DNA from: Verrucomicrobiia bacterium | GTDB lineage: Bacteria; Verrucomicrobiota; Verrucomicrobiia; Limisphaerales; JAEYXS01 | Reading direction: 5' to 3' | DNA: 64,000 bases | Assembly (NCBI GenBank): GCA_036405135.1 | Contig: DASWYF010000035.1 | Location: forward strand, 124,001-188,000 | Shown: positions 1 through 40,691 of the stretch, piece by piece | How the letters are laid out: each line of letters opens with the position of its first letter | How positions within the stretch are numbered: the stretch's first letter is position 1 | Program-made: the position numbers and the translations under genes | Notes under the pieces: generated by a model | Database searches by the model: none | What the model was told of the DNA's origin: nothing | Seen by the model: only the letters and a program-made list of their open reading frames with translations

Positions 1-1
1 T

Positions 2-2749: not shown

Positions 2750-2836
2750 GCCGGTTGCACGAGAGGCCGATGTTCGCCACAGAGGGAGAAGACACAAATT
2801 TCACTGATTGGCACGAATTGGGGGAAGGGAAATTTA

Positions 2837-3606: not shown

Positions 3607-3660
3607 CACTCCTCACCCCGGCCCTCTCCTCGTTGAGAGAGGAGAGGGAGAAGAGGGTTA
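3607..3660. repeat. Palindromic element, family A, copy 1
   Basis: A perfect 10-bp stem (CCCTCTCCTC at 3622-3631, 7-base loop, GAGGAGAGGG at 3639-3648) preceded by CTCCTCACCCCGG. The same leader and stem plan recurs at 4190-4245 and 39615-39660. Confidence 0.8.
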
Positions 3661-3713
3661 CGGGCTTCGGCGGTGGTGGGTGGTGTTTTCGTGAGTGCCC
3701 TGACGGAAAAGGT

Positions 3714-3739
3714 TAGGGCGGCGGAGCACCACCGCCCTA
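3714..3739. repeat. GC-rich palindrome
   Basis: Stem TAGGGCGG (3714-3721) and CCGCCCTA (3732-3739) around a loop containing GGAGCACC. It looks like a REP-type intergenic hairpin; only one copy was noticed in the window. Confidence 0.65.
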
Positions 3740-3935
3740 CCGGGATTTGGGTTTTGCATTTCTTTGTGGGGTGGCTGGCGAGGGTTGGGTTTGGGAGGTT
3801 GAGGCCGGAGGCTAGAGTGCCGTAGCACAGGATGCCTTGAACGGGTTGCCGGGCTGAACAAACTGAGCAGTAGGTCATTTCGAGGAAATGTAGAATTAAG
3901 AGTTCAGAATGTAGAAAGGGAAAAACGTCCAACTT

Positions 3936-3966
3936 CCAACTTTGAACGTTGAACGTTCAAAGTTGG
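3936..3966. repeat. Perfect 13-bp palindrome
   Basis: CCAACTTTGAACG (3936-3948) pairs exactly with CGTTCAAAGTTGG (3954-3966) around the 5-base loop TTGAA. No T-run follows on either strand and no gene ends nearby, so a transcription terminator is not indicated. Confidence 0.8.
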
Positions 3967-4086
3967 GAATGGGGCGTATAGGTCGATGGGACTAATGGGT
4001 GATGTGGTGGTTGACAAAGGTAGGGGTGAGGGTTACATCGGTATCACTTCGCTGCTGCTCCTTCGGAGCTTCCTACGTGGCGGAGC

Positions 4087-4112
4087 GGGGGCCGGAGGGC
4101 CCCCTCCTTTTT
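4087..4112 (+). repeat. Strong GC hairpin followed by a T-run
   Basis: GGGGGCC (4087-4093) pairs with GGCCCCC (4098-4104), followed by TCC and five T residues. It has the shape of an intrinsic terminator on the plus strand, but no recognisable gene ends upstream, so it may equally be another intergenic palindrome. Confidence 0.4.
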
Positions 4113-4189
4113 CCACCCATGCGAGAAATTGCAAAAGCGCTGCAAATGGCTGGTTCAGCAGCATGACGTTCTTTGGGGGCACCCCTCAC

Positions 4190-4245
4190 CCCCAGCCCTC
4201 TCCCCTGCCGAAGTTCGGCTTCCCACAAGGGGCGAGGGAGGTGGA
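4190..4245. repeat. Palindromic element, family A, copy 2
   Basis: Leader GGGGCACCCCTCACCC followed by CCCTCTCCCCT and, after an inner hairpin (GCCGAA and TTCGGC), the complementary AAGGGGCGAGGG. It shares the 13-mer GGGGCACCCCTCA with the copy embedded in the kinase gene at 39615. It lies upstream of the likely start of the next gene. Confidence 0.8.
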
Positions 4246-4381
4246 GCCTCTCGTTTCATATCTTAGTTTTTGGTGGTCGAGCATGTCCGGTAACTATCGC
4301 AACGCTTCTTTATACGCTTGTCATCCGGTTGTGGCGTGGCGGAAACTTCGCGCGCGGCAACAAAGTTGCTGGTTCGCGTTT

Positions 4382-7324
4382 ATGCCAATTTTAATCCTGC
4401 TGCTGTTCTTTTGCTCGGGCGCCACGGCGCTGGTGTATGAGGTGGTGTGGTCGAAGTATTTGGCGCTGATCTTCGGGAGCACGATCTATGCGCAGACGGT
4501 GGTGCTGGCGGTGTTCATGGGCGGGTTGGCGCTGGGGAACAGGATATTCGGTCGCCGGGCGGATCTGCTGAAGCAGCCGTTGGGAGCGTATGGGTATGTG
4601 GAGATGGGGATAGGTGTGTATGCGTTTTTCTTCGATTTTCTGCATAAGCTGGCGGACAAGGTGTTTGTGGGTGTGGGTGCGGGGATGCTGGAGCAGGAAT
4701 TCCTGCTGCTGGTGTGGAAGGGAGTGGTGGCGACGGGGCTGTTGATCATCCCGACGGTGCTGATGGGGGGTACGTTGCCGCTGGTGGCGGCGTGGTTGCA
4801 GAGGAATGAGACGGATGCGAGCCGTGTGTCGGCGAGGTTTTACTCGATCAACAGCCTGGGAGCGGTGACGGGGTCGCTGGTGGCAGGTTTCTTTCTGGTG
4901 CAGGCGTTGGGGATGGTGGCGACGCTGCAGGCGGCGGCACTGGTGAACCTGGTGGTGGGTGGAGCAGCGGTGGTTCTATCGCGTCGGGGGAAAGCGGAAG
5001 CGGTCGCGGAGACGAAGCAGACAGAAGCTGTCCCAAGCACACCGCTGGATGAGTCGACGGCGAAGCAGTTGAAACTGGCGATCGGGCTGGTGATGTTGAC
5101 CGGGGGAGTGTCGATGGGTTTGGAGGTGTTGGCAGCGAGGTCATTGGTGCTGGTGTTTGGGGCGTCGTTGCAATCGTTTGCGCTGGTGCTGGTGGCGTTC
5201 ATCTTGGGGATAGGATTTGGAGCGGGTATGATCGCGTCGCCGAAGCGGCAGTGGGTGAGGCGTGAGTTGACGACGATCATCTTGCTGTTGGGAGCGGCGC
5301 TGTGGATCGGGATGTTCATCTGGAACGCGGAGGCGATGGTGAACGTGTATCGGGAGTTGCGGACGGCGGTGGCGAGGACGGCGACAGGGTATCAGCTGCA
5401 ACTGCTGTTGAATGTGATGATAGCGATCGTGGTGCTGGGAGTTCCGGCGGCGATGTTGGGAGCGGTGCTGCCGTTGTGGATCCGGTCGGTGAAGGGGGGG
5501 ATGAGCGGGCTGGCGGAGCATGTGGGGAGGTTGCTGACATGGAACACGGTGGGGGCGGTGGTGGGGGTGTTGGTGACGGGTTTTGTGCTGATGCCGGTGT
5601 TTGGGGTGAGGGCGGCGTTCTGCCTGTTGGCGATCGCCCTAAGCGTGGGGGGGGCGGTGGTAGCATCGAAGCACCGGTTGCAGGGGGCGTTCATGGGTTC
5701 GTGCGCGGTGGGAGGGTTCCTGCTGTTCACGTTGGTGACGGGCGGTGAGTCCTGGCGGCATGTCATGAGCTCGGGCGTGTTCAGGTTGCGTGAGACTGAG
5801 GTGGACTACGAGTACCTGCCAAGAAGGAAGGAGGAGGTGAAAATCGTTTTTTACAAAGATGCTCCAGACGCAACCGTCTCCGTGGAAAGGGTAAAGCGCG
5901 AGGGTGAGGACCGGATATCCCTGCGCATCAATGGCAAAACGGACGCTTCCAGTCATGTGGATCTTTCCACGCAGTTGCTGCTCGGACATCTGGGCCTTTT
6001 CGCACGGCCGGAAGCAGAGAGCATGTTCATTTTTGGCCTGGGCAGCGGTATCTCGGCGGGAGCAGCACTGGCTCATCCTTTGAAGGAGATCGTGGTGGCG
6101 GAGAACTGCAAACCGGTCGTGGAATCCGCAGCATTTTTCGAGAAATGGAATCGTGGGGTGATGAAGGATCAAAGGGTGAAGGTGGTCTTTGAGGATGCGC
6201 GCACAGTGCTAAAGCTGGGGAAGAGGAGTTACGATGTGATCGTGTGTGAACCATCGAATCCATGGCTTGCCGGTGTGGGCAGTGTGTTCAGCCGGGAGTT
6301 CTACGAATTGGCGGCCAGTCAATTGAAGGAAAATGGCGTAGTGGTGCAGTGGTTCCACGTGTATGAGATGCATGATGGCGTGGTGGATCTGGTGACGAAG
6401 ACGTTTTCTTCCGTATTCCCTTATATGGAGATATGGGATCCGGGACAGGGTGATTTCATCATGATCGGCTCCACCAAGCCGTGGACGATGTCTCTATCGC
6501 AAGTAAGCAAGGTGATGGAACGACCGCTGGTGCGGGAGGATTTCGCGAGGATCGGGCTTGCGAAGCCGGAGCATGTTTTCTTGCGCCAGATGGCTTCCGG
6601 TCGGACTGCGTTTGCCATCCCCGATGGGACGGCGATCCAGTCTGACGCGTTTCCAGTGCTGGAGTACGAGGCGCCAAGAGCTTTTTTCCTGGGACATCGG
6701 GCGGAGAAGTTTTTGCAGTTCGATGAACGGACCTGGCAAAGCTCGCTCGCAACTGCGGAAAAACAACGGATTTTAAGAGAGCTGACGGCGGCTGATCTTA
6801 AAGGGATATTCCAGGATGATTATTCGGTAAACCCGGTGCTTACGAGTTACTTGAAGCGGCGGATCGCAGGGGCGGATAACGCAGCTCTGGTGCCGGTATT
6901 TGCTGAACACAGTCCGATACCGTTCATACTACAAACGTATGAAGGCTACGGAGGTCTGCCGAATCTTCCAGCAGATGCGACGCAAGAGCACAAGATAATG
7001 CTAGCAGCTGAAGCTCAAATACTGACAAGTCCGGAAAAATGGCGGGAGAATGTGGAGATCATTGAGAAGACGATCAATGAATTGGGAGCCAAGCCGACCC
7101 GGGAAGGCTTGCGTTGGAAACCGGATCATTTCCTCTGTCTGGCAGTGAAGACTGCGCTGGCGAACCGCGATTTCCTCCGGGCGCAGCAGTTACTGGAACT
7201 GGAGAAGTATGTGGAGGAAACGCGGGAGATGCGCTATCTGAAACGCATCGTGGCAGTGGCGGCTCCGGGAAAATCTGCAACAGCAGTGCCACTGCTGCTT
7301 GTGAATCCGCAACAAGGGAAGTAG
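4382..7324 (+). CDS. MFS-like transporter fused to a spermidine synthase-like domain
   Basis: Polytopic inner-membrane protein of about 980 residues. The N-terminal half has some 12 or more hydrophobic segments, starting with a CSGATALVYEVVWSKYL motif characteristic of the fused spermidine synthase/MFS family. The C-terminal part (about residues 490-720) is a Rossmann methyltransferase-like fold: GLGSGISAG as the nucleotide loop, EDART, then VCEPSNPWLAGVGSVFS at the position of the aminopropyl-transfer motif. The actual substrate of this widespread family is not established; polyamine synthesis is not implied. The frame is open further upstream, but that DNA contains a palindromic repeat, so the start is placed at ATG 4382, with ATG 4283 as the alternative; neither has a clear Shine-Dalgarno. 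The last 250 residues are poorly conserved. The first half of the gene is extremely G-rich at third positions. Confidence 0.8.
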   Translation: MPILILLLFFCSGATALVYEVVWSKYLALIFGSTIYAQTVVLAVFMGGLALGNRIFGRRADLLKQPLGAYGYVEMGIGVYAFFFDFLHKLADKVFVGVGAGMLEQEFLLLVWKGVVATGLLIIPTVLMGGTLPLVAAWLQRNETDASRVSARFYSINSLGAVTGSLVAGFFLVQALGMVATLQAAALVNLVVGGAAVVLSRRGKAEAVAETKQTEAVPSTPLDESTAKQLKLAIGLVMLTGGVSMGLEVLAARSLVLVFGASLQSFALVLVAFILGIGFGAGMIASPKRQWVRRELTTIILLLGAALWIGMFIWNAEAMVNVYRELRTAVARTATGYQLQLLLNVMIAIVVLGVPAAMLGAVLPLWIRSVKGGMSGLAEHVGRLLTWNTVGAVVGVLVTGFVLMPVFGVRAAFCLLAIALSVGGAVVASKHRLQGAFMGSCAVGGFLLFTLVTGGESWRHVMSSGVFRLRETEVDYEYLPRRKEEVKIVFYKDAPDATVSVERVKREGEDRISLRINGKTDASSHVDLSTQLLLGHLGLFARPEAESMFIFGLGSGISAGAALAHPLKEIVVAENCKPVVESAAFFEKWNRGVMKDQRVKVVFEDARTVLKLGKRSYDVIVCEPSNPWLAGVGSVFSREFYELAASQLKENGVVVQWFHVYEMHDGVVDLVTKTFSSVFPYMEIWDPGQGDFIMIGSTKPWTMSLSQVSKVMERPLVREDFARIGLAKPEHVFLRQMASGRTAFAIPDGTAIQSDAFPVLEYEAPRAFFLGHRAEKFLQFDERTWQSSLATAEKQRILRELTAADLKGIFQDDYSVNPVLTSYLKRRIAGADNAALVPVFAEHSPIPFILQTYEGYGGLPNLPADATQEHKIMLAAEAQILTSPEKWRENVEIIEKTINELGAKPTREGLRWKPDHFLCLAVKTALANRDFLRAQQLLELEKYVEETREMRYLKRIVAVAAPGKSATAVPLLLVNPQQGK

Positions 7325-7336
7325 GGTGGAGGCATC

Positions 7337-8152
7337 GTGGACCAGATATTGTTTCAAGCGGGAAGATTTACGGTGACATGGTACGGGGCGCTGATGGCGC
7401 TGGGGTTTATCGCGGCCTTATGGACGGCGAGCAGACGGGCAGTGCTCGTGGGTGTGTCTCCGGAGAAGGTGGCAGATGTGGGACCGTGGCTGATCATCGG
7501 AACGATCATCGGTGCACGGCTGGTTTATGTGGTCTCGTATCCGCAGAGTTTCGAGGGAAAGCCTTTCTGGCATGTGTTCGCGGTATGGCAGGGCGGATTG
7601 GTGTTCTATGGAGGATTGTTCGGGGCTTCAGCGGCGTGTGTGCTGTTCTGCCGGTTGAACAAGATTCCGTTGTGGAAGTTCGCCGATGTGCTGGCGCCGA
7701 GTGTGGCGTTGGGGCATGCAATCGGACGACTGGGATGTTTGATGAACGGATGTTGCTATGGGAAGGCGTGCGACCTGCCGTGGGCGATCAAATTCCCAGT
7801 AGGTCATGAAACGCATCCGGTGGGTGAAGCGGCCATTCCCATCCATCCAACTCAGATTTATGAATCCTTATTGAACTTCGCTTTATATCTGGCGCTGGCG
7901 TGGTGGTTCCGGAAGCAACGGAAGTTCGATGGACAGGTGTTTGCCATTTATTTGCTGGGGTATGCGGTGGTGCGTTCCACGGTGGAGATGTTCCGTGGGG
8001 ATTATCCACAGAGCTATTATGCGGCAGGCTGGATGACACCGGCGCACAAGGTAAGCATAGTGATTCTGCTCGCAGGCATCCTCCTGTATGCCTGGCAAAA
8101 GACGAACGGGATGACGGCCAGGGAAATCGTGGTGACAGCAGATAAAAAGTAG
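7337..8152 (+). CDS. lgt: Prolipoprotein diacylglyceryl transferase
   Basis: Integral membrane enzyme that moves diacylglycerol from phosphatidylglycerol onto the lipobox cysteine of prelipoproteins, the first step of lipoprotein maturation. The Lgt signature is clear: HAIGRLGCLMNGCCYG around residue 130, IHPTQIYES, and a C-terminal RSTVEMFRGD. At 271 residues it has normal length with about seven membrane segments. The GTG start at 7337 is supported by GGTGGAGG six bases upstream. It lies 12 bp after the transporter fusion and 2 bp before rluD, so the three are probably cotranscribed. Confidence 0.96.
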   Translation: MDQILFQAGRFTVTWYGALMALGFIAALWTASRRAVLVGVSPEKVADVGPWLIIGTIIGARLVYVVSYPQSFEGKPFWHVFAVWQGGLVFYGGLFGASAACVLFCRLNKIPLWKFADVLAPSVALGHAIGRLGCLMNGCCYGKACDLPWAIKFPVGHETHPVGEAAIPIHPTQIYESLLNFALYLALAWWFRKQRKFDGQVFAIYLLGYAVVRSTVEMFRGDYPQSYYAAGWMTPAHKVSIVILLAGILLYAWQKTNGMTAREIVVTADKK

Positions 8153-9127: not shown

Positions 9128-11173
9128 TCAACTCGCGGTGAGGGCCATGGCGCGCCGGCAGGTCAGACTGATATAAGCACACCGCAACAGGGAATCGCTT
9201 TGCGGATGATGCGCGAACTGGGTCAAGCTGATGCTCAAGCGCGTCAACCCCATGCGCGCCACGCGGCTGGCCGTTTGTCGGATTCTCTCCAGGTGCAAGT
9301 GGTTCAATGCCCCCAGGCCGGATTCAGCCATGGTGAGCAAACCGTCATCCACCTCCGCCAGCAAGCGGGCGATGGTGGGGCTGGCTGATTCGAGATTGTC
9401 GATTTCCTCATCCATCCCGAACAACTCGGTGGGTTCCTCCACTTCCTCACTTTTCTCCAGTGCGGTTGTTTTTGCCTGGTCAAGATAGAGGTGCAGAATT
9501 TTTCCGTTGGCGAGATGGAACGTATAGGGAAAAAGGGCGAGTCCCGTAAGCCCATGCTGAATGCGCCCGATCACCATTGCTCCTTGCAAGGAATCAGCCG
9601 CGATACTTTCCAGAAACTCGATGCCAGGCCGGTTGAGTTCATCGTAGGGGATTTCGAGAGCCATCATCTCTCCCTGCGAATCTTCCAAGGCCCAGGAAAA
9701 CTGCTGGGCCACAGTTTCAAAATGACGTTCACGCCAGGTTGCTGGTTTGAGCGCGAAGATAAAATCCAACGGATTCGATTCCTTCAAACCGATGGCCGCC
9801 CGGTGTTTGAACTGTTGCTCCAGATGAGACCATTGTTTGACGGGTAACAGGCTCTGGTTTTCGAGTGCTGCCACGCCGGTCACCAAGACCCGGCTTTTGG
9901 TGGAACTGGACAGCCGGTTGGCAGGATTGCGCCGGGCATTCATCAGTCGGAAGGCGCTACGGGCCAGTTGTTGCGGTGATTCGGTTCCTTCCCACGGACC
10001 TGGCTGGGTAAATCTCGCCGCCGGTTTGAAATCACCGAGCTGATGCGCGGGCCGTGATTCGCTCCAGGAATTCCATTGCTTGGCAGAAGGATCCCAAAAC
10101 AGGATGGTGAGACCTTCATAGCCGGAGGCTGTGCGCCATGGCCAGGCCGCTGCTCCCAAAAGGTCCACGTGGCCGATCTCGTCATAGCGGGTGCGGTGCA
10201 GCCCGACCAGATCGGCCCGCGGATTTTCTCCGCCATTTTCCAAGGCGGTGCAAAGCGCGTGCGCTTGGGCCAGGCGACCGAGCAGGCGGGTCAGATCGCT
10301 CCGTGCATCACGGGCCACTGTCAAAGCGGCCTCATCTCCGATGCCCCGCAACGAAAGCGCCAGACGGGGCAGATTCACGCCCAGCGCTGATACGGCCAGC
10401 GTCAGCCATCGTTGCCGGTTTGCATCCGTGATGCGCGAAAGGCCATTGACCAAGGTCTCAGCCAGCAAGCCGTGACACGAACCGAGCACCTCGGCGCGCG
10501 TGCGCGGAGCTCCACTGGAAGCAGACGGCGATTCCGCCTCGGTCGGCAACACCCATTCCTTGCCGTGGGCGCGTTGAAAAGCGATCACGGCGGCGACGAT
10601 CAGGTCACGCCCATCGCCTTTTCCACCAGCGACGATCATGCCGTCGAGATTTCCGCCGCTGACGAGATGGACGCCCGCGTTCAAGGCCGGGAAATGCACG
10701 CGCAAGCCGCGTTCATGGCTGACCTGGGCGGGGAACAGAACGGCGAGCTTCTGTCCGGCACGGAACACGGCCTTGCCCGCCCAACGCTCCACCATCTCTG
10801 GTGTGAGCGCCATAAGATCGGTTTCGGGAGCAGGCTCTGATGTGGTCACGTCAGCAGCTGGTTCACTGGGAATCATCTCCGCTGTCGCGACGCCTCGCTG
10901 CAAGAAGAGCGTAGCGGTGACGATGTGCTGGCAGACACCGGAGGCCGGGCATGAACAGGTGGCGGTGGCGGGACCGGATTCTGGTATCCGCACCGTGAAA
11001 TGCTCCACTTGGACTTCGAGCCGCCCGTCTTTTTCACCCGTCACGCTCAGCGATACCTGACGTTCGAGATCCTTTTGCGCCCGGCGCAGAAGGCCCTTGC
11101 TCGCCAACGCTTCCAGCGCGGTCGCGTCGAGCGCGGCGGCGAGGCGGCGGAGTTTGGATTCGAGGGTGCTCAT
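9128..11173 (-). CDS. SWIM zinc-finger protein (YehQ-like)
   Basis: Last gene of the six-gene DUF4132/MoxR/VWA operon. Near the N-terminus it carries a SWIM motif, CxC-x5-CxH (C73, C75, C81, H83 from the chosen start), the zinc-binding fold used for nucleic acid or protein contacts. The remaining roughly 580 residues are a helical region I do not recognise beyond likeness to E. coli YehQ. The frame extends ten codons upstream, but the ATG at 11173 overlaps the stop of the VWA gene (TGATG), indicating translational coupling; the adjacent ATG at 11176 is equally possible. No enzymatic motif is seen. Its likely role is target recognition or scaffolding in the complex. Confidence 0.82.
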   Translation of the reverse strand: MSTLESKLRRLAAALDATALEALASKGLLRRAQKDLERQVSLSVTGEKDGRLEVQVEHFTVRIPESGPATATCSCPASGVCQHIVTATLFLQRGVATAEMIPSEPAADVTTSEPAPETDLMALTPEMVERWAGKAVFRAGQKLAVLFPAQVSHERGLRVHFPALNAGVHLVSGGNLDGMIVAGGKGDGRDLIVAAVIAFQRAHGKEWVLPTEAESPSASSGAPRTRAEVLGSCHGLLAETLVNGLSRITDANRQRWLTLAVSALGVNLPRLALSLRGIGDEAALTVARDARSDLTRLLGRLAQAHALCTALENGGENPRADLVGLHRTRYDEIGHVDLLGAAAWPWRTASGYEGLTILFWDPSAKQWNSWSESRPAHQLGDFKPAARFTQPGPWEGTESPQQLARSAFRLMNARRNPANRLSSSTKSRVLVTGVAALENQSLLPVKQWSHLEQQFKHRAAIGLKESNPLDFIFALKPATWRERHFETVAQQFSWALEDSQGEMMALEIPYDELNRPGIEFLESIAADSLQGAMVIGRIQHGLTGLALFPYTFHLANGKILHLYLDQAKTTALEKSEEVEEPTELFGMDEEIDNLESASPTIARLLAEVDDGLLTMAESGLGALNHLHLERIRQTASRVARMGLTRLSISLTQFAHHPQSDSLLRCAYISLTCRRAMALTAS

Positions 11174-12294
11174 CATCGCGAATTGATGACCTTGGCCAGC
11201 CACGCGGCGAAATGTTTGGGCGTGAGCGCGGCGATCTCCATGCCGGTTTCCGCCAGCCGCTCGGCCATGTGATGGTCATAGATCGGCGCGGCACCCTGGT
11301 CGAGTGAGGCGAGACCCATCAGCTTGACGCCGCTCTCGCGCAGGCGGCGGCAGGTGCCCAGCATCACGGCGGGGGCGGCGCCTTCGCAGAAATCGCTCAC
11401 CAAGGCGAGCACGGTGCGATGCGGATTTTCTACCAGCGACTCACAGTATTGAAGCGCCTGGCCGATATTCGTTCCGCCGCCCAGTTGCACACTCATCAGG
11501 ACTTCCACCGGGTCGTCCACATGATCGCTCAGGTCCACCACCTGCGTGTCGAAGACCACAAGCCGCACACGGACGAGCGGCAGACCGGCCAGGATGCCCG
11601 CCATCACCGCGCTGTGGATCACGGAGTCCGCCATGCTGCCGCTCTGGTCCACACAGAGGATCACCTGCCAGGGCAACTGACGGGTGTTGCGCGCGAAGAA
11701 GCGCGGGTCTTGTAGCACGATCTGGCCGCGTTTCGCGTCATAGTGCTTGAGGTTGCGCTTGATCGTGTCGCGCCAGTCGAAGTTTTGCGCCGCTTTCTGC
11801 GGGCTGTGCCGCCAGCGGTTCATGCGTCCGGCGAGGGCGCGGCGTACGTCGGGCTCGAGCTTGCGTTTGATCTCTTCGATCACCTGGCGGATGATCCGGC
11901 GCGCCGTTTCGAGTACCTCGCCCTGCAGGTGGCCGCGGAAGGTCAGGAGCGTCTTCAGCAAGTCCATGTTCGGCTCGAGCTTCTCCAGCGTCTGCGGATC
12001 GGTCAGGAGCTCCTTCATCCCGTAACGGTCGAGCGCATGTTTCTCGATCACCTCCACTACCTCGCGCGGGAACAGCTCGCGCACCTCGCCAAGCCATCCG
12101 GGGACCGTGAGCTGGGAAGGATCCAGCGAGCCGGCCTGCTGCCGGTCACGCACGCCGCGTCCTTTGTATTCGCGTGAATACAGGTAATCCAACGCCGCCT
12201 CCATGCGCGCATCACGGGCGGAGAGCGGCTCCGATAGCTGGTTCTGCGCGAACCGGCCGAGGACGAGACGCCACCGTGTATGTGTGTTGCTCAT
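11173..12294 (-). CDS. VWA-domain (CoxE-like) protein, YehP-like
   Basis: Protein of 373 residues with a helical N-terminal half and a C-terminal von Willebrand A domain. The metal-ion-dependent adhesion site is intact: D216-x-S218-x-S220 in CVDQSGSM, T275 in GGGTNIG, D301 in VSDFCEG. VWA proteins of this type partner MoxR-family AAA+ ATPases as substrate adaptors, and such an ATPase is encoded two genes upstream. The ATG at 12294 has GGAGG seven bases upstream and overlaps the stop of the DUF5682 gene by 4 bp (ATGA); a start ten codons earlier is less likely. No signal peptide, so cytoplasmic. Confidence 0.87.
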   Translation of the reverse strand: MSNTHTRWRLVLGRFAQNQLSEPLSARDARMEAALDYLYSREYKGRGVRDRQQAGSLDPSQLTVPGWLGEVRELFPREVVEVIEKHALDRYGMKELLTDPQTLEKLEPNMDLLKTLLTFRGHLQGEVLETARRIIRQVIEEIKRKLEPDVRRALAGRMNRWRHSPQKAAQNFDWRDTIKRNLKHYDAKRGQIVLQDPRFFARNTRQLPWQVILCVDQSGSMADSVIHSAVMAGILAGLPLVRVRLVVFDTQVVDLSDHVDDPVEVLMSVQLGGGTNIGQALQYCESLVENPHRTVLALVSDFCEGAAPAVMLGTCRRLRESGVKLMGLASLDQGAAPIYDHHMAERLAETGMEIAALTPKHFAAWLAKVINSR

Positions 12295-14780
12295 GAAGGC
12301 ACCTCCGGGGTTTCCGCCAGCCATCCGCTGAGACCGTCGTCAGCGAGGGTCTTTTGCACCAGCGCATTGACGCGCACGGCCATAAGGAGGTCAGCCTCTG
12401 TTTCGTTTGAGGTGTGACGGGTATCGATTCGCTCACCACCGGTGACCTCCGCGACCACGCCCGCCACGCGGTCAGTCTCTGCCGGCGTCAGCTCGGCGAA
12501 GGCCATCCGCAGATGCGGGATGCGCTGGACGAACTCCTCCTCGCTCCAGGCCGACAAAAGTTTTTCCACTGCCACGATCAATTCACGCTGGCGCCATGCG
12601 AGCTCGCGGCAGGCGCGCAACAGGCCGGTGAGGAAGGCCGTCTGTTCGCCTGGCTGGCTTGAGGCCGCGTTAAGCGAGCCGGCGAGGAGCCGCATCAATC
12701 CATCCTCCGGCAGATGCCCTTCACCATGCAACACACCCGCCATCCCGCCACTGAGGAGGGGCGGGCACGTAGGCTGGAGAAACGTTTTTCGCAATGGTGC
12801 GTAGCAGAGCCCGGCATCCAGTCCCAGATGCTCTGCCACCCTGGAATGCAAAAGATCGCGCAAGGCCAGCACCTGGCTCAACGTCTCTTCGGCTGCCTCG
12901 GCCGGAGTGACTGCCAGATTGTGCAGCAGATAACACGCGCGCTGATAGGCGGTCTGGATCAGTGAGGGCACTTCCGTCAGCCGATGCGCCTCCAGCGGTT
13001 CGCGGGATTCCCAGAGCAGTATGAGCTGGTTTAAGGCACCCACGAGCGAACCCAGCGCCGGGTCGCCATCGATCTGCGTTCGCACCAGGCCGAGCAAGCG
13101 TTCGGTGTGCCGGTGCAGGCCCATGCGACACGCGTGGATCAGCATCTTCACCGCCTCGGCTGCGCAACGGCCCTGACCATTCTTCTCCAGTTCAGCGATC
13201 GCGAGGGCGAGCCGGTTCGTGGCGGCTTCCTCGACGGTGGCTCCGAAGATGCCCGCCTCGATCAGATGGCTCTCCGTTTGCGGCGACCACTGATAGTTCC
13301 AGTGTTCGAAGAGCCGTTCGAGCCCGCTGCCATTCACGAAATCAGGCCCCGCTGTGAGCGTGCCAAAGGGCACGTTGAGAAATGCGAGACTGTGCAGGAA
13401 ACGGCTCGTCTGACGATGGGACACTTTCCGGTACAGGTCCAAAGATGTCTTGCGCCGCACGGTCTCGCGGATGTTCAGCCGCAGCTTGAGCGCGGTGGCA
13501 TGAAAATCCCCGACGATGGGCGGAGAGCCCGCTTCAGCCGGGACTTCACCGATCCTCGTTCCGCCCAGCGCATGCCGCGCGAGGCCGAGCACTACTGCGC
13601 CCTCGGCATCCATCGCCCCTTTCACGAAGCAGCTCCGGATGCCGTCCAGCAGGTCTTCGCGCGTGGGACCGGGATGCGCCCGCAATGCCGCGAGCCGCGA
13701 TGATTGCTCCAAGGCTGCGATCTCGTCCGCCGGTGACAGCGCGATCGCCAGTTTCTTCTGCCGCGTCAACTGGCCCAGCTCCACCAGAAATCTCGCAGCC
13801 ACATCGGTGTAGGCGCCCTTGGATTTGGCGCGGGTCGCCGCCTGCCATATCTGGTCGTAATAGTAAGGCGCAGGCATGCCAGCGGCATAGCCGTTCAACG
13901 CGTCGAGCTGCTCGAAGCTGTAACGGATCAGGCAGACGACGCTTTCGGGAAACTTGGGCGGGGGCGTTTTCTGCGTGCGCGTGGTTTCGACCAGTGCGGG
14001 CAGGGCGACGGTGTGAAAGCCGCCGGTCACCACGAGCACACGGTGTCCCTGTTCCAGTTCCTCCTGGATGGCCGCGGCCATGGCCGCTTCCCGTGCGGTC
14101 GTGCCATCGGCCTCGAGTTCGGGCGGCGACGCATCCGCGCGCGCGTAGTAGCACCATGCGGCGACGTCATGGATGAATTTGTCCAGGTCCAGCTCGCCTT
14201 CCATGCGTGTTTCGAAGAGGTGATCCCAGAGATCGTTGTGATCGCGACACCCCGCGCGGCGGGCGAGAGCTTGCAGGTAACGGCTTCGCTTGAAGTGCCG
14301 TTCCTCCTGAAGCGACTCCACGCGCGGCGCCCCTTGCTTTTCCGCAGTAGATTTCTCTGCCCGCACCTGGCCCGGATAATCGAGATCGATGAAACGCAAG
14401 GACGCGCCAGTCTGTGCCCCGGTGCGCAACGCCACCAGTTCCGGCGAGTAATCGCAGAAAGGATAGTAGGCGGCATGACGCGGCGGGCCGGTCAGTCGTG
14501 CCAGGGGCGAGGTGCCGGGCGTCTCCTCCGGTTCTTCCACAAAGCTGGTGTACACCGCAAAAGGCGCCTTCGTCTTGGGATGCAAGATGAGCGGGATCAA
14601 CGGGGTGAAACTGGCTGGGCCTTCGACGAGTATCGCATCCGGCCGTCGCTCACGGATGAGCCGCTCCAGGTGATGCGCGCACGCGGGACTATGATGACGG
14701 ATCGGGAAATACGTCACCCGTTCCGTGATCAAGCCCGGCAGCAGTGCCGCGACCGGCTCGGCGGTCAGCCCCGCAACCAT
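12291..14780 (-). CDS. DUF5682 family protein (YehM-like)
   Basis: Cytoplasmic protein of about 829 residues. The N-terminal domain has conserved-looking motifs FPIRHHSPACA (residues 25-35), ILVEGPAS (50-57) and VVTGGFHTVAL (about 245-255), which together suggest a catalytic or metal-binding fold like the EreA/ChaN/TraB-type families; that relation is my inference. The C-terminal two thirds is alpha-helical. The ATG at 14780 overlaps the upstream ATPase gene by 16 bp; a start nine codons earlier would overlap more. Biochemical function is unknown; in E. coli the corresponding gene yehM sits beside the ATPase yehL. Confidence 0.8.
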   Translation of the reverse strand: MVAGLTAEPVAALLPGLITERVTYFPIRHHSPACAHHLERLIRERRPDAILVEGPASFTPLIPLILHPKTKAPFAVYTSFVEEPEETPGTSPLARLTGPPRHAAYYPFCDYSPELVALRTGAQTGASLRFIDLDYPGQVRAEKSTAEKQGAPRVESLQEERHFKRSRYLQALARRAGCRDHNDLWDHLFETRMEGELDLDKFIHDVAAWCYYARADASPPELEADGTTAREAAMAAAIQEELEQGHRVLVVTGGFHTVALPALVETTRTQKTPPPKFPESVVCLIRYSFEQLDALNGYAAGMPAPYYYDQIWQAATRAKSKGAYTDVAARFLVELGQLTRQKKLAIALSPADEIAALEQSSRLAALRAHPGPTREDLLDGIRSCFVKGAMDAEGAVVLGLARHALGGTRIGEVPAEAGSPPIVGDFHATALKLRLNIRETVRRKTSLDLYRKVSHRQTSRFLHSLAFLNVPFGTLTAGPDFVNGSGLERLFEHWNYQWSPQTESHLIEAGIFGATVEEAATNRLALAIAELEKNGQGRCAAEAVKMLIHACRMGLHRHTERLLGLVRTQIDGDPALGSLVGALNQLILLWESREPLEAHRLTEVPSLIQTAYQRACYLLHNLAVTPAEAAEETLSQVLALRDLLHSRVAEHLGLDAGLCYAPLRKTFLQPTCPPLLSGGMAGVLHGEGHLPEDGLMRLLAGSLNAASSQPGEQTAFLTGLLRACRELAWRQRELIVAVEKLLSAWSEEEFVQRIPHLRMAFAELTPAETDRVAGVVAEVTGGERIDTRHTSNETEADLLMAVRVNALVQKTLADDGLSGWLAETPEVPS

Positions 14781-15916
14781 TTCTTTGCCTCGTAGAACTC
14801 CTGCCACGTCTTGCTTCCTTTGCTCCGCGCCTTCACCACCACGTCGAAGTAGTGTTTCAGTTTTTTCAGGTCGTCGGGATTGTCCTTGAGCACGGTGCCG
14901 AGCAACTGGCGGGCGACGTGGCTGCTCTCCAGCCGCGCGTTGCCGAAGTACGCCGCATCCAGCGCTGCCGAATGGCTCACGGCCACGGCCTCGGCGGTGG
15001 ACATCACGGTCGAGGGTTTCTCCAGGGCGGTGCCTTCCTCCGTGCGGCCGTGCCGCAGATCATTGAAGGTGGTGACCAGCAGCTCCAGTACTTCAGCCGG
15101 ACATTCGACTTCGATGGCCGATTCCGCGAGCAACGCCGCCGTCTGCTCCTTCACCAGCCGCAGTTCCATGGCCTTGTCCGCCAGCGGCGCGACGGTCTCG
15201 AAATTGAAGCGCCGTTTCAACGCGCTCGACATCTCATGCACGCCGCGGTCCCGCAGGTTCGCAGTGGCGATGATGTTGAAACCCTTCTCGGCAAAGCGGA
15301 CGGCGTTTTCGCCCGGCAATTCCGGCACCTGGATGCATTTGTCCGAGAGCAGGCTCACCAGCGTGTCCTGGATCTCCGGCTGGCAGCGGGTGATCTCCTC
15401 GAACCGCACCAGCGCGCCATCGCGCATGCCGCTGTAGAGCGGAGAGGGGACGAGCGCCCGGGGCGTGGGGCCTTCGGCGAGCAGCAGTGCGTAATTCCAC
15501 GAATATTTGATCTGGTCATCCGTGGTGCCCGCCGTGCCTTGGATGGTAAGCAGCGAATTCCCGGAGATGGCGGCGGAGAGCAGTTCGGACAGCATCGATT
15601 TCGCGGTGCCTGGCTCGCCCACGAGCAGCAGGCCCCGGTTGCCGAGCAATGTCACAATGCACCGCTCCACCAGTGCGTCGTCGCCGAAGAATTTCTGCGT
15701 GATGACCGTTTTCTTCTTCCCCCCTTGCCAGGTGTGCGTCACCGGCGCGGTGCCGCCCACGATGAAATCACGGACGGCGCGCGGGGACAGTTTCCAGTTT
15801 GCCGGACGCTTGGCCGTATCGCTGGTGGCGAGCGCGGCCAGTTCCTCCGCGTAAACGATCTCTGCGGGCGGCCGCACCATGCGCGGTCCGGGTTGTTTCG
15901 GTTCAGGTTTGCTCAT
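14765..15916 (-). CDS. MoxR-family AAA+ ATPase (YehL-like)
   Basis: 383-residue AAA+ ATPase that would drive remodelling of a protein or metal-cofactor target. Walker A is GEPGTAKS (100-107). The Walker B region reads LVRFEEI (169-175), with Glu-Glu rather than the usual Asp-Glu. Sensor 1 is IIATANLRD with N220, followed by an ALKRRF arginine-finger segment (232-237). MoxR ATPases act with VWA adaptors, here encoded downstream. The start at 15916 lies 16 bp after the DUF4132 gene stop. It is the third gene and the only clear motor of the operon. Confidence 0.9.
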   Translation of the reverse strand: MSKPEPKQPGPRMVRPPAEIVYAEELAALATSDTAKRPANWKLSPRAVRDFIVGGTAPVTHTWQGGKKKTVITQKFFGDDALVERCIVTLLGNRGLLLVGEPGTAKSMLSELLSAAISGNSLLTIQGTAGTTDDQIKYSWNYALLLAEGPTPRALVPSPLYSGMRDGALVRFEEITRCQPEIQDTLVSLLSDKCIQVPELPGENAVRFAEKGFNIIATANLRDRGVHEMSSALKRRFNFETVAPLADKAMELRLVKEQTAALLAESAIEVECPAEVLELLVTTFNDLRHGRTEEGTALEKPSTVMSTAEAVAVSHSAALDAAYFGNARLESSHVARQLLGTVLKDNPDDLKKLKHYFDVVVKARSKGSKTWQEFYEAKKWLRG

Positions 15917-15932
15917 GGGTTCGGTGCAAAAA

Positions 15933-18581
15933 TTAAAGTCTTACTTTTTGTTCCCATTCCGGATCGAAGCCGCTTCCCTCGGCGGCGATGTGGCGGAGAT
16001 CGTTCCAGCATTCGCCCAGTAACACGGGCGGTACGGAGCCAAAACTGACCTTGGAGCCCGTCGTGCCGGTCTCGCCGTCGGACGAGAACTGCTCAAAGTA
16101 ATAACTCTTCAGGGCTACGGTGTTGTTCTCCTCGGGCAGGCTGTTGCCGCTGAATTCCAGCACGGCTTCCAGTCCGAGCGTGGGGAAACGTTTGCGGTAG
16201 TCGTAAAACCAGCCGCCATCCTGCGTCTGGCCGCGGTTGTAACCGAGCTTGCCAGCGCGACCACGCAACTTGAAGGCTTCAAGCAGGTGGCCTTGGAAAT
16301 CAGCCAGCTCATCATCCTGCTCCTGTTTCAAGCTGAATGCGGGGCGGCCGAACTGTTCAAACAACGGTTCCACGTCGTAGTCCTTGAGATGCTCACGCCA
16401 GCCGGTGGATTGGGCGGGGGTCACGTGGCATTCGTGCGCCAGCCGGATGGTGTCCTCCGGTTGCAATGTGACTGGCGCATCTTCCAGGTCCGTCAGGGAG
16501 CCGTCTGGCAGCGGACGGAACAGCACGGTCTTGTTGTCATTCCGCGTCGCGGACCACACGGCGAGCTGGCAGAGATGCCGCGCGATCGGGTGACGGTTCA
16601 GGTAGGTTTGCCAGTCATCCACGGGCCACGCCCGTTGCGTGCACATCGCCTCGTAGAGCCGTTCGCGCTGCATGGAGAGGACTGTCTTGAGTTCCTTTTT
16701 CGCGGCGGAGAAAACCTTTTTTGCTTCAGCGGACTTGGCTTCATCATCATCCTGGCGAGGATCGGGCAATGCCTTCAAAACTTTGCCCTCGCCATCGTGG
16801 AGGACAAACTCCAGGTCGTCATTCAAGGTCGCCTTGAACTGGCGGGGACCGAAATCGAGCGTGAGCACGCCATCTTCTTCCAGACCGGCGCTGGGGATGG
16901 TGCGATCCGCCAGTTCGGCCAGCGTCCAGTTCTTGCGCTCGGCCAACAGTTGCACCTGCAACGCCGCCTCTTCCTGGATGCTCTTGGTGCGGAAGCGGCT
17001 GCCGACCGCGAGCAGCAATTGCGTGGCGGTCTTGTGTTCCACCCAGGCGAGCATCTGGAGCAGGGCACGGCATTGCGCGGCCCGGTTGCCATACCATTGC
17101 TTCAGGTATCGGTTGACTACGGGGACCGCAGCGCCTCCAACACACGCGCCCGCCACCCCAAGGATTCCCTTGCTCGCCACCGCCGATCCCTTGGGTCGCG
17201 AGAGAAATGAGGGCAGAAACTCGGCGAAGAATTCATCCTCGGTTTTCTTGGCCTGGCTCCAGCCTGGCATCTGGCACCAATGCGCCCACGATTTTGCCTG
17301 TTCACGGGCCTCTTCTTCGGCCTTTTCCCGCGAAATGGGCGCGACGTCCTCCGCGAGCCAGGCTTCCAAGACGAACTGGCCCAGCCGCTCACGTTCCATG
17401 GGGTTGAACTTGGAACAATACGTGCGCAATAACGCGGTGGGTTCGGGGCTCTTGAGTTTCAATCCCTGCACCAGCCACCACTGCAAAACCTCGGGCTCGA
17501 CCGTCTGGCCGTTGTCGGCCCAGTGCACGGCCGGAAGCTGGGCAAATGGAAACCACTGCAACGCTTCTGGAATCCCTTTCTTCAAACCAGCCAGGGCCTC
17601 CTTTAAGAGTCCATCGCGGTCGAGGAATTGTTCTACGGCCACTCCGAGCTGTTCCAGCGCACCCATCATCGCACCCTTCGCGGGTTCGTTCTTCTCCTTC
17701 TTCAACGCCGCCGTCAACGGGGGCACGGCTTGCGGGTCTTGGCAGCGTCCCAGCCAGTCGGCCGCTGCCTGGCGCGACTCGGCTGTGCCCGATTTCAAGG
17801 CTTCGATCAAACGGGCCGTTTTATCCGGCAGATTTTCCAGGCAACTTTGGGAGGCTGCACGTTCACTTTTGGGACCCAGTGCAAGATCCCATAACAACGG
17901 CACCAGTTCTGCGGGTGGGACCGGGAAAGCGGCCGCTGCTTGAAAGGCGCGTTGCCGGTTGCGCTTTTGATACCAACGATCGATGGAATCTCCGGAGGAC
18001 GGCTGCAAGGCCCCCACCAGCAAGTCGAGGTGGTTCGCCCAATATGGCCAGATCAGCCGCTCAGACATCCCGAATGGCCGGGACGTGTCACGAAAAGTTG
18101 CCAGCATTCCTTTCCCCACCAGGTCGGAGGGCCTCCCAGCCTCGGCCAGACCCTCGCCCAATTCTTTCAATCCTACATCGGGTCGCGTGCGCCGGAAAAG
18201 CGGGATGAGCGTCTGGGCCAGTGAGCCTTCAAACCATAATTGAGAACTGCTGCTATACAGCGCTCCGGTCAGGACAAAAAAACGCATCAGGTGCACAGGC
18301 CGCAACTCGGCGCGCTCCCAGAAAAGGCACAGGGGGGCTTTGCACCGGGAATCAAGCCCCAGGTAGAAGTAGCAGGGAAAGACCGGCAACGCCTGGATTT
18401 CACCGCGCAACATCTGAAATCCCCGGACGATATCTTCCGCCGTCGCTTGCTTGAGCGGCTTCCCTTCAAAGTGTCGGGGAATGGCAGCGATGATGGGGGC
18501 GAGTCGGTGGAAAAGCTCGGCCCAAGCCTTTTCGGTCTCCGGTCCCAGCGGGGTTTCGCAAAGTTCGCATGATGTTTCCAT
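15933..18581 (-). CDS. DUF4132 protein, second paralogue (YehI/MolR-like)
   Basis: 882-residue protein. HEAT-like helical repeats occupy the middle (about residues 245-330). The C-terminal DUF4132 region starts near residue 635 (AWPVDDWQTYLNRHP, RLAHECHVTPAQ, WREHLKDYDVEPLFEQFGRP, GRAGKLGYNRGQ) and ends with WNDLRHI. The N-terminus has CELC, a possible half metal site. E. coli YehI/MolR carries the same domain; a link to molybdate was proposed historically but the mechanism is unknown. It begins 7 bp after its paralogue and 16 bp before the ATPase. Sequence identity between the two paralogues is low outside the DUF4132 motifs, so the duplication is old. Confidence 0.8.
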   Translation of the reverse strand: METSCELCETPLGPETEKAWAELFHRLAPIIAAIPRHFEGKPLKQATAEDIVRGFQMLRGEIQALPVFPCYFYLGLDSRCKAPLCLFWERAELRPVHLMRFFVLTGALYSSSSQLWFEGSLAQTLIPLFRRTRPDVGLKELGEGLAEAGRPSDLVGKGMLATFRDTSRPFGMSERLIWPYWANHLDLLVGALQPSSGDSIDRWYQKRNRQRAFQAAAAFPVPPAELVPLLWDLALGPKSERAASQSCLENLPDKTARLIEALKSGTAESRQAAADWLGRCQDPQAVPPLTAALKKEKNEPAKGAMMGALEQLGVAVEQFLDRDGLLKEALAGLKKGIPEALQWFPFAQLPAVHWADNGQTVEPEVLQWWLVQGLKLKSPEPTALLRTYCSKFNPMERERLGQFVLEAWLAEDVAPISREKAEEEAREQAKSWAHWCQMPGWSQAKKTEDEFFAEFLPSFLSRPKGSAVASKGILGVAGACVGGAAVPVVNRYLKQWYGNRAAQCRALLQMLAWVEHKTATQLLLAVGSRFRTKSIQEEAALQVQLLAERKNWTLAELADRTIPSAGLEEDGVLTLDFGPRQFKATLNDDLEFVLHDGEGKVLKALPDPRQDDDEAKSAEAKKVFSAAKKELKTVLSMQRERLYEAMCTQRAWPVDDWQTYLNRHPIARHLCQLAVWSATRNDNKTVLFRPLPDGSLTDLEDAPVTLQPEDTIRLAHECHVTPAQSTGWREHLKDYDVEPLFEQFGRPAFSLKQEQDDELADFQGHLLEAFKLRGRAGKLGYNRGQTQDGGWFYDYRKRFPTLGLEAVLEFSGNSLPEENNTVALKSYYFEQFSSDGETGTTGSKVSFGSVPPVLLGECWNDLRHIAAEGSGFDPEWEQKVRL

Positions 18582-18588
18582 AATGCAT

Positions 18589-21500
18589 TTAGTTGGTGGA
18601 ATCGTCCGCCTCGACGGCTGAGGTTGATTTTCCGGCGATCTTTGCGAGATCTCCCATCGCTTCCGAGAAGGCGATCACGGGCACGTCCTGATAGGCTAGC
18701 AGGCGGGCGTCGTCTGCATCGCTGGGCTCGTCATAAACATAGCTGCCGATTTGCACGCTGCCGTGCTTCACGAAGAAGACCTTGCCGAGAGTGATCTCTG
18801 AGTACATATCGATGCCCACGTACATCCCTTCCGTTTCCACGAACACATCCACGCCCGTCGCCGGAAAACTTTTCAGATAGTAATTGATGCAACCCGCATC
18901 GCAGACGGAGCCGCGCGCCCAGCCAAGGCGTTCGGCGCGGCCCTTGAACGTGATGCCGTTCAGTTTGGTGTTGAGCACTTCATCGCCGAATTTGGTTTTC
19001 TCTGTGCCGGTCGCGACCTTGATGACAGGCCGTTCCATCTGCGCAAAGGGCGGGACCACCTCATAGTCCGCCAGGTGCGTGATCCATTGCTGGCGCAGTG
19101 CGGCGTCGAGTTCGAGCGGATGCACCACACCCACCTGGCCGCCGTTGGGCAGCTTCACCGCTTCATCCTGGGCGTCTGTCGCCGAATGATCCTCCAGGAT
19201 GCGGAACGTGCCGGTGAGTTTGCCGGTGTCATCATACGTCGCCCACACGAGCCTTTGTGCGAAGGGCAGTAGCAGGGGATGCTGGAGGTAAAGCTCCTGC
19301 CAGCGTTTCATCGGCCAGCGGAATTGGCGCACCATCAGGGTCTCCATCCGCAGCAACTGCGATTTCACCGCTTCCTTCAGGCTGGCCGTCATCTCCTTGA
19401 ACTCCGCCTTCAATTCCGCCGGGATGCTGTCCGGCAGCTTGGCGACCTTCTTGTTCGTCGCCACATCGCGAAAGGCGAGTTTGAAATCCTCGGTGATGCG
19501 CACCTCCACGGTCGCCTTCCCGGTCGCGATGAGTCGGGGCTGTCCCGGTGGGAACCCCAGCCAGGGCACGACCAGATCGCCCAATTCCTCAACGGTCAGG
19601 CCTCGGGCCTGGGCCGCCTCGGCGAACGCTTCGCTGGCCGCCTTGCCGATATTCTTGTTCTTGGCGCGATACCGGATGGCCATGGCGTCCACGGCAAGCA
19701 GTGCGGAATCCGAACCCATCAAGGCGAGGGATTGCACGGCATACTCGGCGAGCTTGCCCCGCATGTTGTCCGCCCATTCCTTGGTCTGGCGGGTGAGGAC
19801 GGGCACGAGGCGGTCATCGCCGACGATCGCTGCGAAGGCCATCGTCCAGCGGTCATCCGCATCTCCTTTTGAGGCGAAGAAGGCTTGTACCACCGCGAGG
19901 GCTAGGTCCCCCGAGGTCTTGCGATCGATCTGCTGGTAGAGCGGCTTGGCCTCGATGTCTGCGCGCATCTCCTTCACGCGTGATTGCCGGTACAGCAGAT
20001 ACAGCAGCGAATCCACCGGCAGGGTCGAGCCGTCGCGCAGACGCGGCATGGGCAGCTTCTTTGGGTCCAGCCATGGCACCGGAGAATCCTTGACCTTCTG
20101 GAGGGTTTTTTGGATCCGTTCCGCAAACTCCTTCGGGCTCAGGGCCACTGTCCCGCCTTGTAATTTTTCCAGCGCGAGCAGGATCGCGTCCCGGACGTTG
20201 TCATCCTCTTCAGTATCTAACCGCGTCTTCAACGCCGCTGCCGCCGCGGGTGTTCCGATCGCCTTTAACCATGCCACGGCTGCGATCCGCGCATCTGCCC
20301 GGCGAATCGCCCACAATTCCTTGGTCTTCGGCAGGCGGGATTCACCCAGTTTCGCCAGCGTCACGGCCGCCGCTTCGCGCACCGGCTTTGATTTGTGGGC
20401 CAGCAAGGGCCAGAGATCGTTTTCCATCGCTTCGAGCGCGATGTCTCCGCTCAAGCGAACCGCCCGGGACAAGACCGAGCCGTCCTCCTCGGCAAACAGA
20501 ATCCGTAAGTTCTTGGCGATTGCTTCGGTGTCTTCGGAGGACTTGATTCCTGCCCAGAATTTCAGTGCCTTCAATTGCACTTCTGGTTGTGAGGTGGCGA
20601 AACACGAATCCAGCAGAGGGATGGCATCGCGTCCTAAGGTTTGGACGGCGATCTCCAGGTTCTCGATCTTGTAGTCGCTTTGGAAACGGATATGCCATGC
20701 ACCGCTGAGTTCCAGGGCGAAGTATCTCTGGAGTAATGGGAACTGGGCGCGGGCGCGATGTCGGGCGAGCCATGCGCCCGATTGGCGGGATTGTTCTCCT
20801 AGATTGACCTGTCTGCGTGAATCAACGGCCACCAATTGGGTGACAGCCAGCTTTTCCATCGCGGCCACGAACCGTTCCGGAGCGGCAGTGTGCAACCGTT
20901 TGCCGATCTCAAAACGGGAATCCCAAAGAGTCAGTCTCTCAAAGGCAGTGGCGGAGACTTCAAGAAACATCGATGGCGCGAGCTCCATCGGCCAGATCCA
21001 AACATTGAAATGCAACTCTGGGAAAACATCGGCTGTCTTCAATCGTTCGAGCTGTTGCAACCACCGGTTCGGTGCGTGGGTTGAAAAGAGCAGTGCGATC
21101 ACCGACGAATCAATACCGTTGGTGCAGTGATCCCTGAGTAGATGTTCCAGAACGCCGTCGTCCACCTGGAGCAGATGACGTCCGGCAGCGGTGGTGGAGC
21201 GGTCTGTCAGGTCTAGCAGACGGACATGCCGGATAAGTTCGGAGGCGAGCCGTTTAGAGGGACAGCCCAATTCAACCGCCACAGCTTGAGCCCGGTGGAA
21301 TACCTCGGCATCGGCAGGGTTGTGGGTGGTGACGTGGCCGATCCAACTGCCGATCGCGCCCGGGTGATCAAGCTTCAGGCAGGCAGTGAGAAAACGTTTG
21401 CCCGATTCATCGAGCGTCGCCGGATGGCCAAGCGCAAGCAGAAGTTCTCCGGGAAGCCACGCTGTGGTCTCAAGTTTCGGGATTTTCTTCAGGTGGGATT

Positions 21501-21600
21501 CATCGCCTGAAAGAATGAATTGTTTCCATGCCGGGTTCGCCCACTCCTTGTGCCACGCCTTGGTTGCCAGTTCATCCAATGCCTTGATGATCGCTGCCAT
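18589..21600 (-). CDS. DUF4132 protein with HEAT repeats, first gene of operon (YehI/MolR-like)
   Basis: 1003-residue protein opening the six-gene operon. Residues about 310-480 contain HEAT-type repeats (RDAIPLLDSCF, KPVREAAAVTLAKLG, DNVRDAILLALEKL), and DUF4132 spans from about 750 to near the C-terminus (FRWPMKRWQELYLQHPLL, LADYEVVPPFAQMERP, KGRAERLGWARGS). No transmembrane segment or signal peptide is visible. The start ATG 21600 has AGGAAGG about ten bases upstream. HEAT arrays are protein-binding scaffolds, so it may hold the ATPase-VWA machine and its target together. The roughly 100 bp upstream to the next gene should hold the operon promoter; I could not pick a convincing one. Confidence 0.82.
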   Translation of the reverse strand: MAAIIKALDELATKAWHKEWANPAWKQFILSGDESHLKKIPKLETTAWLPGELLLALGHPATLDESGKRFLTACLKLDHPGAIGSWIGHVTTHNPADAEVFHRAQAVAVELGCPSKRLASELIRHVRLLDLTDRSTTAAGRHLLQVDDGVLEHLLRDHCTNGIDSSVIALLFSTHAPNRWLQQLERLKTADVFPELHFNVWIWPMELAPSMFLEVSATAFERLTLWDSRFEIGKRLHTAAPERFVAAMEKLAVTQLVAVDSRRQVNLGEQSRQSGAWLARHRARAQFPLLQRYFALELSGAWHIRFQSDYKIENLEIAVQTLGRDAIPLLDSCFATSQPEVQLKALKFWAGIKSSEDTEAIAKNLRILFAEEDGSVLSRAVRLSGDIALEAMENDLWPLLAHKSKPVREAAAVTLAKLGESRLPKTKELWAIRRADARIAAVAWLKAIGTPAAAAALKTRLDTEEDDNVRDAILLALEKLQGGTVALSPKEFAERIQKTLQKVKDSPVPWLDPKKLPMPRLRDGSTLPVDSLLYLLYRQSRVKEMRADIEAKPLYQQIDRKTSGDLALAVVQAFFASKGDADDRWTMAFAAIVGDDRLVPVLTRQTKEWADNMRGKLAEYAVQSLALMGSDSALLAVDAMAIRYRAKNKNIGKAASEAFAEAAQARGLTVEELGDLVVPWLGFPPGQPRLIATGKATVEVRITEDFKLAFRDVATNKKVAKLPDSIPAELKAEFKEMTASLKEAVKSQLLRMETLMVRQFRWPMKRWQELYLQHPLLLPFAQRLVWATYDDTGKLTGTFRILEDHSATDAQDEAVKLPNGGQVGVVHPLELDAALRQQWITHLADYEVVPPFAQMERPVIKVATGTEKTKFGDEVLNTKLNGITFKGRAERLGWARGSVCDAGCINYYLKSFPATGVDVFVETEGMYVGIDMYSEITLGKVFFVKHGSVQIGSYVYDEPSDADDARLLAYQDVPVIAFSEAMGDLAKIAGKSTSAVEADDSTN

Positions 21601-40053: not shown

Positions 40054-40056
40054 CGC

Positions 40057-40686: not shown

Positions 40687-40691
40687 GGTGG

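Follow-up and report, generated by a model that had tools for sequence, protein, structure and literature searches.

A MoxR-VWA operon of YehL/YehM type in a Verrucomicrobiia bacterium and a predicted TIKI/TraB/ChaN-like domain in its DUF5682 protein

MoxR AAA+ ATPases, of which the YehL subfamily has been named previously (PMC3893208), occur together with VWA partners carrying a metal ion-dependent adhesion site (MIDAS) in the metal-insertion pairs NorQ-NorD and CoxD-CoxE, and MoxR-vWA pairs joined by an invariant third protein form the ternary systems that have been proposed as conflict systems with variable third parts (PMC7159879). The described locus closest to the one reported here is that of E. 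coli MG1655, where the genes follow the order yehF(WGR)-yehH(pseudogene)-yehI-yehK-yehL-yehM-yehP-yehQ. We analyzed a stretch of 64,000 nucleotides from a Verrucomicrobiia bacterium (contig DASWYF010000035.1, positions 124,001 to 188,000; hereafter the window) that carries six tightly spaced open reading frames (ORFs) on its minus strand at positions 9128 to 21600, in the order DUF4132, DUF4132, MoxR, DUF5682, VWA and SWIM. This operon is almost certainly of YehL/YehM type and orthologous in content and order to E. coli molR/yehI-yehL-yehM-yehP-yehQ. The gene set itself is already known but uncharacterized, and a literature search for DUF5682 found no paper naming it; the new value lies in the assignment of the DUF5682 protein, whose N-terminal domain (approximately residues 28 to 300) very probably adopts a TIKI/TraB/ChaN-type fold, and in the tests that this assignment allows. 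The genes of the operon are the following:

18589..21600, minus strand: DUF4132 protein a, the first gene, 1003 amino acids (aa); HEAT-type solenoid with C-terminal DUF4132 (Pfam DUF4132 2.8e-35, HEAT_2 2.4e-8)
15933..18581, minus strand: DUF4132 protein b, 882 aa; HEAT solenoid with beta-rich DUF4132 domain (Pfam DUF4132 1.1e-39)
14765..15916, minus strand: MoxR AAA+ ATPase of the YehL subfamily, 383 aa (Pfam AAA_5 1.2e-35)
12291..14780, minus strand: DUF5682 protein, YehM homologue (Pfam DUF5682 6.4e-112; ORF open from GTG 14807)
11173..12294, minus strand: VWA_CoxE protein, YehP homologue (Pfam VWA_CoxE 2.4e-53; ORF open from ATG 12324)
9128..11176, minus strand: SWIM zinc-finger protein, YehQ-like (Pfam SWIM 0.0032; ORF open from GTG 11203)

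An initial annotation, made from the letters of the window alone, had described six packed minus-strand genes, and both the ORFs and their junctions were verified: If translation starts where it most likely does, at ATG 14780 in DUF5682, ATG 12294 in VWA and ATG 11176 or 11173 in SWIM, the successive junctions measure +7, +16, -16, -4 and then -4 or -1 bp. Scans for promoters and terminators gave matches not above chance level. The two DUF4132 assignments and that of DUF5682 are placed beyond doubt by their Pfam matches, as are MoxR/AAA_5 and VWA_CoxE. The SWIM protein scores under the cut-off of its Pfam family, yet its zinc motif CSCPASGVCQH (C-x-C-x5-C-x-H) is intact, and the pattern C-x-C-xn-C-x-H is common to 20 of 24 SWIM homologues. 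Likewise, the Walker A motif (GEPGTAKS) is found in all 29 MoxR homologues, and the MIDAS that had been read as intact in the VWA protein is conserved family-wide, with D226, S228, S230, T285 and D311 each kept in at least 95% of the family.

Gene types and order match those of E. coli MG1655, with two DUF4132 genes followed by MoxR, DUF5682, VWA and SWIM on one strand, and this correspondence extends to the individual proteins. The MoxR protein aligns with YehL over 367 residues at 51% identity (E=2e-123), a relation close enough to place it in the YehL subfamily, and the VWA protein is 44% identical to YehP; DUF5682 shares 29% identity with YehM over 784 columns and DUF4132 28-29% with YehI over the C-terminal part, while the match of the SWIM protein to YehQ is weak but significant (E=5e-6). 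The two loci differ in that yehK is missing from the window operon, that YehQ has two SWIM motifs instead of one, and that the window proteins show no WGR match and include an N-terminally short DUF4132 protein b. Two DUF4132 genes had been taken for a variation on the yeh theme. However, two are also present in Massilia, in other Verrucomicrobia and in E. coli itself (molR/yehH plus yehI), where other records annotate DUF4132 across the yehF/yehH stretch and our DUF4132 profile hits the yehH pieces; the doubled gene is therefore the E. coli state. Thus, the yeh identity claimed by the initial annotation stands, whereas neither its view of the doubling nor a defense role (see below) finds support, and a maturation-type role may apply; the TIKI-like domain of DUF5682 and a LexA box upstream of the E. 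coli genes were not part of it.

The wider distribution of the system was studied in 41 DUF5682 loci, comprising 31 from genome contigs, those of E. coli and the window, and 8 from genomes of the phylum. MoxR adjoins DUF5682 in 38 of these, VWA is present in 34 of the 37 loci whose contig does not end first, and the full order DUF4132(x1-2)-MoxR-DUF5682-VWA-SWIM is found in 23 of the 41. ATPase, VWA, DUF5682 and usually SWIM thus remain together across distant phyla, as the unit proposed initially would require, and gene order is kept from Proteobacteria to Verrucomicrobia and Planctomycetes. A second layout, SWIM-DUF5691-MoxR-(DUF4132)-DUF5682-VWA, occurs at 4 loci (L059, L061, L064 and L066; DUF5691 was placed by genome search in the first and by Pfam scan in the others), of which L061 and L066 have MoxR, DUF5682 and VWA without DUF4132. 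Genome G218 even carries both layouts, with DUF5691 at L061 and without it at L062. Given this co-occurrence and the two layouts, the constant core is MoxR, the motor, together with DUF5682 and VWA, while its usual partners are SWIM and HEAT-type scaffolds, and the latter (DUF4132 or, in the second layout, the putative solenoid DUF5691) look exchangeable. Among 241 genomes of the phylum, DUF5682 scores over the cut-off in 8 and DUF4132 in 13, with both in 6 (P=2e-7), and 4 of the 5 genomes with DUF5691 also have DUF5682 (P=3e-6); the 7 genomes with DUF4132 but without DUF5682 indicate that DUF4132 has other uses. At locus L060 of a phylum relative, MoxR and DUF5682 are separated by a protein that matches a DNA gyrase B domain (L060:4414-5577), and DUF4132 is found instead as the last gene of the operon.

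The assignment of the DUF5682 N-terminal domain draws on profile comparison, conserved residues and a predicted structure. In hhalign comparisons, DUF5682 matched ChaN with P=1.2e-5 and a score of 44 (best of 40 shuffles, 21) and TraB with P=2.9e-4 and a score of 36 (best shuffle, 18), far above these shuffled controls and above the unrelated families MoxR, VWA and SWIM, which gave about 0.1%; profile similarity thus points to the TIKI/TraB/ChaN superfamily. A match to 2g5g identifies the ChaN query as a genuine relative of ChaN, the ChaN/TraB matches were reproduced with A6/A5, and the block aligned with both families is REaxMAxxI...VLVVTGGFH of DUF5682. An alignment of 25 DUF5682 proteins revealed R37-H38-x-S40-P41, E62, P64, D141, R239-E240-x-x-M243 and G262-x-x-H265 as invariant. 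In the AlphaFold2 model of the whole protein (mean confidence score pLDDT 83.9), H38 follows strand 31-36, E62 lies within strand 58-64 and H265 stands just past strand 257-262, after which a long, helical and mostly solenoid-like C-terminal part begins. Across 19 TraB proteins, H56, E82, R254 and H280 are among the invariant residues, the same four types as H38, E62, R239 and H265 of DUF5682, with an R-to-H spacing of 26 in both families and an H-to-E spacing of 26 in TraB versus 24 in DUF5682. The active site of the erythromycin esterase EreC comprises H50, E78, R261 and H289 (PMC7979712), which would correspond to the same set. Structural comparison by VIA-align gave Z scores of 11.2, 10.9 and 10.7, over residues 13-278, to chains of Tetrahymena complex IV, whose identity as TraB is not confirmed, although this complex includes a TraB-family subunit (PMC10060162); HopBA1, which belongs to the TIKI superfamily (PMC6254334), reached a Z score of 7.7, a level possible by chance. 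DUF5682 resembles the TIKI/TraB/ChaN/erythromycin-esterase superfamily in a predicted parallel beta/alpha core with invariant His, Glu, Arg and His, but differs in that the GxxH of motif 1 reads P/A-[IV]-R-H, in its long helical C-terminal extension and in its location in an AAA+ operon.

Our preferred reading of the whole operon, to which we give a probability of roughly 40%, is that DUF5682 is a TIKI-type hydrolase which a MoxR-VWA machine either remodels or supplies with a client, on HEAT scaffolds and with SWIM as a recognition protein. A MoxR hexamer as the motor and the VWA protein as a CoxE-type MIDAS adaptor would form a remodeling machine dedicated to DUF5682, and ATP-driven pulling via VWA might either activate the hydrolase or present a client to it. 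The DUF4132 proteins would serve as HEAT-solenoid scaffolds and SWIM as a zinc-dependent recognition module, both bringing the client to the machine, and in E. coli, DNA damage may plausibly induce the set via the LexA box ahead of molR.

The AlphaFold2 model of DUF4132 protein b (pLDDT 84.7) combines a solenoid of HEAT/ARM type with a C-terminal domain rich in beta structure, and for this model Foldseek returned mainly HEAT/ARM solenoids including karyopherins at E values of 0.002 or worse; searches of PDB sequences with DUF4132 and with DUF5682 gave nothing useful. Relatives of protein a hold the same first position at L005-L007 and L062. Protein b lacks around 350 N-terminal residues that are found in all close relatives of the alignment (full-length relatives have approximately 1230-1260 aa), its start lies 7 bp past the stop of protein a without a clear ribosome site (window 18581-18600), and a search of the rest of the genome did not recover the missing part, so that either a deletion or an assembly fault may account for the short protein.

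Several observations weigh against the preferred reading. Well-scoring profile alignments are limited to the last motif block of 30-44 columns, and the erythromycin-esterase family profile did not match DUF5682. Foldseek with the whole DUF5682 model, in which the helical C-terminal part dominated, found nothing below E 0.001, so that the N-terminal domain was exposed only by VIA-align. Sequence comparison did not establish a link between chain DQ of complex IV and TraB, as the TraB profile run against PDB sequences gave mostly designed or helical proteins. DUF5682 is also found without MoxR at L008, L011 and L015; at the first of these, a full-length DUF5682 gene (L008:9968-12412, 51% identical) is isolated, as MoxR, VWA and SWIM genes are all missing from the surrounding approximately 10 kb. 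No LexA-type box was found upstream of 24 other operons including that of the window, which makes the LexA link local to E. coli instead of general. As to catalysis, TIKI-fold proteins may be non-catalytic, as PMT lacks the catalytic motif and ChaN binds haem (PMC6254334, PMC7979712). Furthermore, DUF5682 lacks the Glu that neighbors the first His in RRSP and EreC (ExH/ExxH) and has P/A or I/V at this position, so that the catalytic set is 3 of 4. TraB as aligned has no invariant Glu next to the first His either, so the second Glu is a feature of one branch of the superfamily only. With three quarters of the superfamily's His/Glu catalytic residues and the conserved Arg kept, DUF5682 is most likely a hydrolase, and we slightly favor an active enzyme that would cleave a peptide or ester bond.

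The alternative that survives best, though we consider it unlikely, is a chaperone for cofactor or metal insertion, in which MoxR-VWA would load metal or haem into DUF5682 or, via a non-catalytic ChaN-like DUF5682, into another client. The operon resembles NorQ-NorD and CoxD-CoxE in that a MoxR ATPase is paired with a VWA protein carrying a MIDAS, and its own VWA protein belongs to the CoxE family; in addition, the best profile match of DUF5682 is to the haem-binding ChaN, and molR was named for molybdate use according to Lee et al. 1990 as cited in PMC8533742. Unlike these pairs, however, the window operon has no target oxidase or reductase alongside and comes with the extra partners DUF5682, DUF4132 and SWIM; no recurrent metalloenzyme was found beside the operon in 24 loci, and the invariant His/Glu/Arg/His set would exceed the needs of a haem site.

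We similarly doubt, and somewhat more strongly, that the system is primarily a DNA-damage machine, in which DUF4132/WGR proteins would sense broken DNA and MoxR-VWA-DUF5682 would clear or process stuck proteins. This reading is suggested by a LexA-type box in E. coli, CTGGATAAAATTACAG, which ends 9 bp ahead of the yehF start at the operon head and scores 12 of 16; boxes of the form CTG-N10-CAG with a score of at least 10 occur in 1.4% of random 380-bp stretches of the fetched loci. The other loci tested lack such a box, and TGTTC-N4-GAACA, which we take to be a possible LexA site of Verrucomicrobia, has no occurrence in the window. In E. coli, molR is included in lists of LexA-regulated genes (PMC11039860) and the yehF transcript rises approximately 2-fold (PMC11002266), a modest induction; a Deinococcus DUF4132 gene is strongly raised upon depletion of the repressor DdrO (PMC8533742). 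WGR-type matches were found in yehF, YehI, L028 and L060, but none in the proteins of the window. At L005, in a close relative, an ATP-dependent DNA ligase-WGR fusion (L005:15674-17047) lies immediately downstream of the operon.

The genomic setting bears on a third alternative, modeled by analogy on the proposal of Kaur et al. 2020, in which DUF5682 would be a toxic effector released by MoxR-VWA upon phage sensing. As in the MoxR-vWA ternary systems, there is a MoxR-VWA pair with a CoxE-type VWA and an invariant third protein. Here, however, this third protein is DUF5682, Pfam and NCBIfam scans found no VMAP, iSTAND, FtsH-like or beta-propeller component, the window MoxR scores 26.4 against the bpMoxR cut-off of 27, slightly under, and MolR, YehL and SWIM go unmentioned in the main text of PMC7159879. 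The spread of the system is patchy, with the 8 of 241 phylum genomes given above, and DUF5682 is absent from both congeneric genomes searched (93% and 76% complete), which makes gain by transfer, or loss in the sisters, likely; its relatives among named genomes, with 67% identity to subdivision 3, indicate a Verrucomicrobia host. The GC content of the operon is 0.61 compared to 0.55-0.56 on both flanks. The neighbors in the window are housekeeping genes (lgt, pseudouridine synthase, spermidine-synthase-like, PfkB kinase, ThiE and histidine kinase). PADLOC gave no match of weight among the six operon proteins and, on 115 neighbor ORFs of DUF5682 loci, 9 families with one member each, among them mad1, mad2, mad3, RT, BrxL, viperin, AriA and DolB; 10 neighbor ORFs rescanned singly gave no match, and no Pfam family recurred in more than 3 of the 115 neighbors (24 loci). 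Although these few PADLOC matches, the patchy spread and the raised GC content are compatible with a conflict role, the neighbor data speak against a defense island, and with yehM present at a coverage of 80% or above in 5166 of the 5426 genomes of E. coli (approximately 95% of complete genomes), almost always on the chromosome, we regard such a role as improbable.

A mobile element was also considered and rejected: the window contains no tRNA, inverted repeats were not found at the operon edges, and plasmid copies are few (29 records); one unannotated 14-kb phage record contains a MoxR match. Elsewhere in the window, a plus-strand ORF of 2225 codons spans positions 51653-58330, and strong positive GC skew (approximately 0.24-0.37) accompanies the plus-strand gene blocks at 1-8000 and 38000-52000 and is absent over the minus-strand operon.

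In its most specific form, which we put forward only as a speculation that we ourselves doubt, the machine with DUF5682 as a TIKI-type hydrolase would represent an AAA+ protease of a new type, made of a MoxR-VWA unfoldase or activator and a DUF5682 peptidase, with the client chosen by HEAT/DUF4132 and SWIM proteins and with damage induction in E. coli. If true, this AAA+ protease would be widespread, unrecognized and unrelated to Clp, Lon, FtsH and HslUV. A near-universal E. coli locus now gains a concrete prediction, namely that YehM, with a TIKI-type active site, would serve the YehL-YehP motor as client or partner; the YehM residues that merit mutation are named, and the E. coli operon thereby gains a testable function.

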